Source: Sphingobacteriales bacterium (GTDB lineage Bacteria; Bacteroidota; Bacteroidia; Chitinophagales; CAIOSU01). From it: 64,000 nucleotides of DNA. The notes under the pieces were generated by a model. That model saw only the letters and a program-made list of their open reading frames with translations. It made no database searches and was not told the DNA's origin. The stretch lies in NCBI GenBank assembly GCA_027483645.1, contig JAIXUD010000008.1:1-64000 (forward strand), given 5' to 3'. This document shows, piece after piece, positions 28,904-29,605 of this stretch. Made by a program: the position numbers and the translations under genes. Position 1 is the stretch's first letter, and each line of letters begins with the position of its first letter.

Positions 28904-28928
28904 AAAAACCGCCCAGAAGGCGGTTTTT
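28904..28928 (-). terminator. terminator after the last tRNA-like copy
   Basis: A 10-base stem AAAAACCGCC/GGCGGTTTTT, loop CAGAA. It begins right at the CCA end of the tRNA-like copy, in the direction of leftward transcription. Confidence 0.85.
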
Positions 28929-29001
28929 GGTGGAGGATAACGGAGTCGAACCGATGACCTTCCCGCAATCCTGCGGGACGCTCTAGCCAGCTGAGCTAAT
29001 C
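28928..29001 (-). pseudogene. tRNA-Ala-like copy 1 (downstream of GIY-YIG)
   Basis: Identical to the intact tRNA-Ala through GATTAGCTCAGCTGGCTAGA, in the T arm, and in the 3' ATCCTCCACCA. The 5' acceptor strand is lost (ACCTGAT instead of GGGGGAT), so the acceptor cannot pair. The 17-base anticodon arm is replaced by an 18-base hairpin TCCCGCAGGATTGCGGGA with a 6-base loop. Its 5' 19 bases are also the final codons of the GIY-YIG gene. Confidence 0.8.
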
Positions 29002-29234
29002 AGGTACTCGATGTAACGCCTGCTTTTCTTCTTTTTGATTTCCGATTCATGCGCCATAGCTGAGGCCCGGTCAATGAACTCCTTGGAGTACTTTAGTTCC
29101 CAGTCATTCGAATGTTTTGTTGACTTACTGCCAGAATTGATGTGTCTTCGCAACCTATCGTCAATATCAACTGTGTGGCCGATGTAGTATTTATCGGTAG
29201 ATGGGGAGTAGAGTATGTAGGTGCAATATGGCAT
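28983..29234 (-). CDS. GIY-YIG nuclease family protein ending in tRNA-derived codons
   Basis: An 83-residue stand-alone GIY-YIG protein (UPF0213/URI type). The core shows YILYSPSTDKYYIG at 6-19 (a variant GIY...YIG), the conserved Arg in DRLRRH, and the metal-binding Glu in the ESEIKK region. It starts 32 bases after the tRNA-Ala 3' end, beyond a hairpin. Its last codons (LISSAG and stop) are read from the 5' part of a degenerate tRNA-Ala copy. The substrate is unknown; the position suggests a link to tRNA genes, but homing is an inference. Confidence 0.88.
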   Translation of the reverse strand: MPYCTYILYSPSTDKYYIGHTVDIDDRLRRHINSGSKSTKHSNDWELKYSKEFIDRASAMAHESEIKKKKSRRYIEYLISSAG

Positions 29235-29242
29235 AAAGTAAC

Positions 29243-29266
29243 AAAAGCTACCCTTGGGTAGCTTTT
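29243..29266 (-). terminator. hairpin between tRNA-Ala and the GIY-YIG gene
   Basis: An 11-base perfect stem (AAAAGCTACCC with its complement) and a 2-base central spacer, followed leftward by TTTTGTTACTTT. It starts at the tRNA CCA end, so it should terminate or process the tRNA transcript before the nuclease gene. Confidence 0.75.
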
Positions 29267-29342
29267 GGTGGAGGATAACGGAGTCGAACCGATGACCTCT
29301 TGCATGCCATGCAAGCGCTCTAGCCAGCTGAGCTAATCCCCC
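29266..29342 (-). tRNA. tRNA-Ala (GGC)
   Basis: A 77-base tRNA including an encoded CCA. The acceptor GGGGGAT pairs with ATCCTCC (one G-T pair), the D arm is intact, the anticodon stem is CTTGC/GCAAG with loop ATGGCAT giving GGC, and the T arm is ATCGGTTCGACTCCGTT. It is the only complete member of four tRNA-like units on this strand and is probably transcribed from a promoter beyond two degenerate copies. Confidence 0.93.
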
Positions 29343-29383
29343 AATTTATCTTGGCTAATTTTCAATATTTCAACAAATTCACG

Positions 29384-29449
29384 AAGGAGTCGAATTGATG
29401 ACCTTCCCGCTTTTCCGCGGGACGCTCTAGCCAGCTGAGCTAATCCCCC
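29384..29449 (-). pseudogene. tRNA-Ala-like copy 3 (degenerate)
   Basis: The 5' half GGGGGATTAGCTCAGCTGGC is identical to the intact tRNA. The anticodon arm is replaced by TCCCGCGGAAAAGCGGGA (6-base stem, 6-base loop). The T stem no longer pairs and the 3' acceptor strand is missing. It lies 107 bases upstream of the real tRNA, in tandem, with a similar linker. Confidence 0.8.
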
Positions 29450-29492
29450 AATTTATTTTGGCTTATATCAATATTTTAACTTCATTCACAAA

Positions 29493-29557
29493 GGGAGTTT
29501 AACCATTGACCTTCCCGCCTTTCCGCGGGATGCTCTAGCCAGCTGAGCTAATCCCCC
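29493..29557 (-). pseudogene. tRNA-Ala-like copy 4 (degenerate)
   Basis: The 5' half is identical to the intact tRNA. The anticodon arm is replaced by TCCCGCGGAAAGGCGGGA. The T arm is altered (GGTTAAACTCC) and there is no pairing 3' acceptor strand. It is the first unit after the promoter, 108 bases upstream of copy 3; the linkers of both copies share TTTATnTTGGCT and a TTCAC-AA-GGAG end. Confidence 0.8.
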
Positions 29558-29575
29558 ATTATTTGAATGGTGGTG

Positions 29576-29605
29576 CAAAGGTAATCAAAAGTCGTTATTG
29601 TCAAA
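29576..29605 (-). promoter_or_regulatory. promoter of the tRNA-Ala array
   Basis: Read leftward: TTTG (29602-29605), an 18-base spacer, TACCTTTG (29576-29583), then the first tRNA-like unit begins 18 bases later. This is near-consensus and would transcribe both degenerate copies before the true tRNA. Confidence 0.65.

Follow-up and report, generated by a model that had tools for sequence, protein, structure and literature searches.

Within the 64,000-nt stretch of GenBank contig JAIXUD010000008.1 analyzed here (the window; Sphingobacteriales bacterium, 4.27-Mb assembly), an intact tRNA-Ala(GGC) gene and the gene of a small GIY-YIG nuclease are accompanied by three degenerate tRNA-Ala copies, in each of which a hairpin, TCCCGC-N6-GCGGGA, takes the place of the anticodon arm. 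The locus looks like a widespread tRNA-bound selfish gene module and not like decayed tRNA. The interpretation that we favor, with moderate confidence, is a homing-like GIY-YIG module, whose nuclease would recognize the hairpin and which would have split the tRNA gene while leaving an intact copy. This interpretation is supported by the association with tRNA genes, the hairpin near the nuclease stop codon, the polarity of the tRNA halves, the placement of the promoter, the covariation of the stem, the isotype fidelity and low dN/dS ratio of the nuclease, its variable copy number, the tandem arrays and the precedent of the phage endonuclease SegB. No account of such a tRNA module was found in the literature searched; most subscription journals and all preprint servers lay outside this search, and it may be described there.

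Organization of the tRNA-Ala locus

Read 5′ to 3′ on the minus strand, the locus begins with a Bacteroidota-type promoter, TTTTG-N18-TACCTTTG (29576-29606), ahead of the first of two 5′-half pseudo-tRNA-Ala copies. This first copy (29481-29557; copy 4 of an earlier, first-pass annotation of this DNA) retains the D arm and the 5′ acceptor strand, has the hairpin (29513-29530) instead of an anticodon arm and ends in a degenerate 3′ part, with a covariance score of 20.6 bits in a local scan. The second (29373-29449; copy 3), with its hairpin at 29405-29422 and likewise a degenerate 3′ part, gave no tRNA covariance match in the same scan. Then follow the intact tRNA-Ala(GGC) (29266-29342; 59.7 bits with Rfam), a terminator-like hairpin, AAAAGCTACCC-AAGG-GTAGCTTTTG (29242-29266), in the spacer between tRNA and nuclease gene, and the 83-codon open reading frame of the nuclease (28983-29234), which stands between the intact tRNA and the downstream degenerate copy. 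The stop codon of the nuclease falls within the D arm of this downstream copy, a 3′-half pseudo-tRNA-Ala (28928-29001; 30.6 bits in the local scan), in which the end of the nuclease gene substitutes the 5′ acceptor strand, the hairpin (28961-28978) substitutes the anticodon arm and the 3′ half is identical to that of the intact tRNA (33/33). A second terminator-like hairpin, AAAAACCGCC-TTCT-GGGCGGTTTTT (28903-28927), lies 3′ of the 3′-half copy and differs in sequence from the one 3′ of the intact tRNA.

Whole-window scans with ARAGORN and Rfam called 29266-29342 as the sole tRNA at the locus. The three degenerate copies, with an 18-base arm instead of the 7-base anticodon loop and full cloverleaf of a tRNA gene, were not called by ARAGORN. 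Because the locus has no second match in the assembly, the intact gene is probably the only Ala(GGC) copy of the genome.

These results bear out much of the first-pass annotation, which had described four minus-strand tRNA-Ala-like units, one of them complete, spaced 108 and 107 bases apart where they are tandem, three with the TCCCGC-N6-GCGGGA hairpin, and a near-consensus promoter before copy 4. The sequence TTAGCTCAGCTGGCTAGAGC is exact in all four units, with minus-strand starts at 29551, 29443, 29336 and 28999 (chance expectation in the window 0.02, with up to three mismatches allowed), and the hairpin, for which no occurrence is expected, is present in the three degenerate units. Its statement that all degenerate copies keep the 5′ half is right for the two upstream copies, whereas the downstream copy lacks the 5′ acceptor strand; conversely, the supposed loss of acceptor and T-arm pairing is seen in the upstream copies, the T arm and 3′ end of which are degenerate, but not in the downstream one, whose T arm and 3′ acceptor strand are identical to those of the intact tRNA. 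The annotation also overlooked the GIY-YIG gene, although this gene accounts for the locus.

The GIY-YIG nuclease

The predicted protein matches Pfam PF01541 with 55.7 bits (cut-off 22.6) and has the fold signature and the catalytic Tyr, Arg and Glu of the GIY-YIG superfamily; Y6, Y17-I-G-H, R27, H31 and E63 are invariant in 30 homologues. The closest solved relatives of the nuclease profile are the UPF0213 proteins 1zg2 (E 5e-11) and 1ywl (E 1.3e-7), both labeled as hypothetical proteins in their PDB entries. In Chryseobacterium and a close relative, taken together as one genus, the dN/dS ratio was ~0.12 over 46 pairs, indicating that the gene is under purifying selection, and copies with frameshifts or stops are common. 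Known defense systems were discarded as an assignment, with weak PADLOC matches only, and so were existing NCBIfam names, for which all matches were weak and under the curated cut-offs.

Recurrence of the arrangement at tRNA genes

A profile search over the genomes of the Genome Taxonomy Database (GTDB) returned 45 loci, almost all from Bacteroidota. Among 394 Bacteroidota genomes surveyed, 225 gave matches at E ≤ 1e-10, with up to 13 per genome; as the loci inspected were the best 30 and 60 further ones, down to about E = 1e-21, 225 is an upper bound for genomes with tRNA-linked modules. Among the 135 homologous loci gathered by protein alone, almost all of them again from Bacteroidota, 119 had at least 400 nt of upstream sequence, and in 92 of these an intact tRNA gene lies on the same strand within 400 nt upstream of the nuclease gene, at a median distance of 51 nt, while an intact tRNA on the opposite strand was found in this interval in 0 of the 119. 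Most of the remaining loci have a tRNA directly downstream, occupy the second place in a tandem array or adjoin a hairpin-marked tRNA piece. About ten isotypes are involved, including Val, Ala, Arg, Asp, Gly, Asn, Pro, Ser, Lys and Phe. Because tRNA sequence encodes the C-terminal residues of some proteins, the profile search may lean slightly towards such loci; the bulk of each profile match is the GIY-YIG domain.

Within the genus of the window's genome, the module is present at tRNA-Ala in two congeners (G002 and G003) and absent from two others (G001 and G004). Of 398 genomes of the order, 51 contain the hairpin-in-tRNA pattern and none the reversed control pattern, and together with the covariation of the inner stem described below this upholds the earlier suggestion of a selected or mobile hairpin as opposed to random decay. 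Conservation in relatives had been set beforehand as the test of whether the copies are ordinary pseudogenes, and mere decay is refuted by it. That the copies are incapable of normal decoding and that many such loci lie at contig ends would be expected of tRNA pseudogenes or of an assembly artefact, but many genera share the architecture, with its precise junctions, covarying hairpin and conserved gene, and it is also found in single-contig genomes, so that we give this explanation hardly any credence; pseudogene decay in particular was rejected in view of the conservation, covariation and precise junctions.

Several related arrangements were encountered in passing. In two congeneric loci (L012 and L013) the tRNA-Ala module is oppositely oriented to a neighboring gene, and in L012 a promoter-like stretch lies downstream, as if the segment were inverted. 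At L014, L089, L094, L104, L105 and others, hairpin-marked pseudo-tRNAs stand beside tRNAs with no detectable GIY-YIG gene in the fetched flanks; some of these, as at L014, are in tandem and resemble non-autonomous remnants. In one family of the order (L018, L019, L033 and L039), tRNA-Ala copies have a TCCCG…CGGGA-type hairpin in the D or T arm, and a GIY-YIG gene was not found nearby. A 5′-half tRNA-Val array (L062:2150-2830) has two hairpins per copy: the D arm contains one of the form TCCCGATAGCTATCGGGA, and the anticodon arm contains the other.

The module also explains false tRNA calls by ARAGORN: for several pseudo copies the program gives the identity as Ala(AGC), Lys, Cys or Arg or leaves it undetermined, and at L014, L066, L068, L070 and L083 it assigns wrong or four-base anticodons to hairpin-marked copies.

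A covarying hairpin near the stop codon

At 72 of 126 loci the nuclease stop codon has a TCCCG…CGGGA hairpin close to it; in dinucleotide shuffles the frequency is 0.2%, and of 565 windows farther away 15 contain one. The hairpin mostly starts at one of a few set distances from the stop (+5, about +19 and -9 to -12). The outer five stem pairs are imposed by the search pattern, and the inner pairs are free: pair 6 is Watson-Crick in 99% of cases (74% when shuffled) and pair 7 in 93% (34% when shuffled), indicating that the inner stem pairs covary. Moreover, the inner stem is common to the left and right hairpins of a locus in 54% of cases, compared with 30% for hairpins of other loci of the same isotype (p = 0.002). 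Some loci have alternative stems, such as TTCCG…CGGAA, CTCCG…CGGAG or TCACG…CGTGA. In the genome of the window, pattern searches give five occurrences of the exact form TCCCGC-N6-GCGGGA, three of them at the tRNA-Ala locus, and for this form a dispersed repetitive extragenic palindrome (REP) family was rejected.

Covariation of the hairpin would also fit a role as RNA, with the pseudo-tRNAs as functional RNAs that are co-transcribed with the tRNA and bind a protein or regulate the nuclease. Their position between promoter and tRNA and the tRNA score of 30.6 bits kept by the downstream copy fit such a role, and the layout of RNA repeats, terminator and nuclease gene is loosely like that of type III toxin-antitoxin loci. 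We nevertheless regard this role as improbable: the folds of the pseudo-tRNAs are about as stable as those of shuffled sequences (z -0.95 to -1.75), the upstream copies lack the T arm and 3′ end, the downstream copies lack the 5′ acceptor strand, and the position of the hairpin varies with the isotype and includes the T arm. The same fold stabilities lend no support to the earlier idea of tRNA mimics that bind a synthetase, RNase P or a nuclease, and a mimic leaves unexplained why the hairpin is located in the T arm or beside the anticodon in other lineages.

Split tRNA halves and the placement of promoter and terminator

The hairpin-marked copies on either side of the module are mirror images of each other. 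For hairpins upstream of the intact tRNA (n = 43), the left flank reaches tRNA nt 1 in 32 cases and the right flank reaches the 3′ end in one, whereas hairpins behind the nuclease (n = 85) have a right flank that extends to the tRNA 3′ end in 67 cases and a left flank that extends to nt 1 in seven. This polarity indicates that the tRNA is split, beyond mere copying. The tRNA stretch that is replaced depends on the isotype: nt 28-44 in Ala and Arg, nt 29-45 in Val, nt 37-46 in Asn, about nt 51-58 (T arm) in Asp, and in Gly either the T arm or the anticodon arm on its 5′ side.

The promoter motif TANNTTTG is found within 60 nt ahead of the first 5′-half copy in 19 of 41 loci and ahead of the intact tRNA in one of the 41; where 5′-half copies are missing, it precedes the tRNA in 23 of 39 loci (background 3.5%). 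Because the motif precedes the 5′-half copies and rarely the intact tRNA, these copies appear to occupy the original place of the gene. At the other end, 35 of 58 loci have a repeat of the resident terminator 3′ of the 3′-half copy. The 3′ half that follows the nuclease gene has a mean identity of 0.95 to the resident tRNA, compared with 0.80 to tRNAs of the same isotype at other loci, and the 35 nt after it have an identity of 0.72 to the resident terminator, compared with 0.43 to same-isotype loci elsewhere.

Isotype fidelity, copy number and a possible alternative origin in place

On a tree of 133 nuclease sequences, the tRNA isotype changes 29 times, compared with 74.5 times in shuffles (never fewer than 68). 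The Gly, Asn and Ser lineages each require a single change, and the Asn lineage spans four host families, suggesting that nuclease lineages track the tRNA isotype across host families; many forks of the tree are unsettled because the alignment has only 82 columns. At a syntenic Ser-Pro-Arg tRNA cluster of Chryseobacterium and its close relative, the module is present in 0, 1 or 2 copies, with three at another cluster, and elsewhere in the phylum arrays reach five near-identical units of 315 bp. The presence and absence at a syntenic site is compatible with homing, and, as in homing-endonuclease systems, there is a fixed type of chromosomal site (the tRNA gene, in 92 of 119 loci) with homologous flanks (the repeated 3′ half and terminator).

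The Ssn family comprises small GIY-YIG site-specific single-strand nucleases that are paired with palindromic repeats of Neisseria (NTS/dRS3). A resident nuclease of this kind could, by acting on its hairpin, modulate DNA uptake or recombination instead of spreading itself, with the tRNA duplicated in tandem in place and the hairpins spread by gene conversion. The close correspondence of 3′ half and terminator to the resident gene, the purifying selection on the nuclease, the tandem arrays and the inverted repeats that flank other small GIY-YIG genes of this genome all agree with such an origin. Still, we consider it unlikely, as the mirror-image polarity of the halves and the placement of the promoter suit an element better, and absence from many close relatives and frequent broken copies likewise speak for an element over a maintained host function.

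A homing-like model

The comparisons above show the architecture and its conservation, the polarity of the halves, the covariation, the isotype fidelity, the purifying selection and the presence or absence of the module. From these, we infer hairpin recognition, cutting, the strand form of the target and movement for the homing-like module as follows. The nuclease would recognize the hairpin, probably as a single-stranded or extruded stem-loop, and breaks at the hairpin would be repaired by recombination, with the tRNA halves and the terminator as homology arms. The module would enter and split a tRNA gene, and an intact copy would remain between the halves; the 5′-half copies would thus show where the tRNA originally began, behind its promoter, and the 3′-half copies where it ended, with its terminator. 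Recombination between repeated 3′ halves could give rise to the tandem units. The intact tRNA would be kept because the cell needs it, and the module would thereby be anchored.

Several observations weigh against this model. The isotype fidelity could also arise by long vertical descent. A clean empty site was sought and none was found, as the flanks are conserved and the junctions differ. There was no match in plasmid or phage records, nor in viral contigs, for which the scan used one short peptide pattern and is weak. The TCCCG form of the hairpin is missing from some loci and the 5′-half copies from many. Finally, the intact tRNA may be resident and not carried in; because the 3′ half and terminator closely match the resident gene, the comparison slightly favors a resident gene with duplicated pieces over a carried-in copy.

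More tentatively, and with somewhat less than even confidence, the loci might represent a hitherto unrecognized class of minimal mobile elements of about 320-400 bp with one nuclease gene, living only in tRNA genes and mainly in Bacteroidota, that end in hairpins recognized by their own nuclease, split the tRNA at an isotype-specific position and, because a complete tRNA is left or brought in between the halves, escape selection.

Comparison with known systems

In phages T4 and T6, the free-standing GIY-YIG homing endonuclease SegB is encoded between tRNA genes; it is frequent near phage tRNAs and is reported to promote the inheritance of the region that holds them and to cause tRNA segments to amplify in tandem (PMC2988022, PMC13096335), and its spread and amplification of such segments is an experimental precedent (PMC13096335). 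As with SegB, the GIY-YIG gene described here adjoins tRNA genes of many isotypes. SegB is, however, phage-borne and not bound to an isotype, and hairpin-marked half-tRNAs are not reported for it, whereas the present module is chromosomal, encodes 83 amino acids, always lies behind the tRNA on its strand, has isotype-bound lineages and has no match in phage records.

The dRS3 repeat, ATTCCC-N8-GGGAAT, is dispersed in many copies (PMC2911385, PMC3733652) and is one of the CGTC-tagged palindromes, which in 2013 were without a known dedicated transposase (PMC3733652). The present locus shares with Ssn and dRS3 a small stand-alone GIY-YIG protein and a short palindrome, TCCCGC-N6-GCGGGA, that resembles the dRS3 repeat, and inverted repeats flank other GIY-YIG genes of this genome. 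Unlike dRS3, the hairpin is confined to tRNA copies and, with five occurrences of its exact form in this genome, three of them at the locus, is not a dispersed repeat there. The short, clustered hairpins are also reminiscent of REP/RAYT systems and CGTC-tagged palindromes (PMC3733652), but there is no RAYT gene in the loci read, and here the hairpins replace tRNA segments and accompany a GIY-YIG gene. Tyrosine-integrase elements at tRNA genes likewise keep the tRNA intact and repeat its 3′ part; the present unit, by contrast, is about 320-400 bp long, encodes the GIY-YIG gene only and no integrase, and has hairpin junctions and a 5′-half copy on the other side.

If the model is right, essential tRNA genes in many genomes of a major bacterial phylum harbor a tiny nuclease module, apparently overlooked so far on account of its short gene and of flanks that resemble tRNA pseudogenes. 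Such a module would be a bacterial equivalent of phage SegB and a possible link of GIY-YIG nucleases to palindromic repeats for which no mobilizing enzyme is known. The matched nuclease and hairpin pairs across isotypes would allow a direct test of whether a very small nuclease recognizes a specific hairpin.

Further GIY-YIG genes of the genome

The genome has ten GIY-YIG genes, two of which are located at tRNA sequence; for the other eight there is no tRNA within the 1.5-kb flanks examined. In the second module (L005), the downstream tRNA-Val copy has its anticodon arm replaced by TCCCGAC-CAATAA-GTCGGGA, and an upstream tRNA-Val 3′ part repeats 51 bp of an intact tRNA-Val 41 kb away. A loss of the tRNA-Val 5′ half at this module was considered and dropped: the 51-bp repeat places the intact tRNA-Val 41 kb away. 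The repeat marks both ends of a candidate 41-kb island in tRNA-Val(TAC) (G000 C10, about 263.6-304.9 kb; L241 and L005), which probably entered the tRNA-Val and displaced its GIY-YIG module. The extra 3′ halves might be decoy attachment sites that divert the integrases of tRNA-targeting islands, with the nuclease attacking the incoming element, as extra intact 3′ halves adjoin the tRNA and an island apparently lies between the tRNA-Val and its module. We consider this very improbable, since the island entered the true tRNA and not a decoy, and the 5′-half copies and hairpins are left unexplained.

Six other small GIY-YIG genes of the genome are not near tRNA, and five of them (L002, L004, L007, L008 and L009) have inverted repeats on either side, 11 to 35 bp long, for example CGTCATTGCGA, TGTCATCCCGAGTTTTTCACGAGGGACCTTCGGGC and CCCTGAGCCTGTCGAAGGGCGCGAGC, which gives these loci the look of a nuclease plus palindrome.
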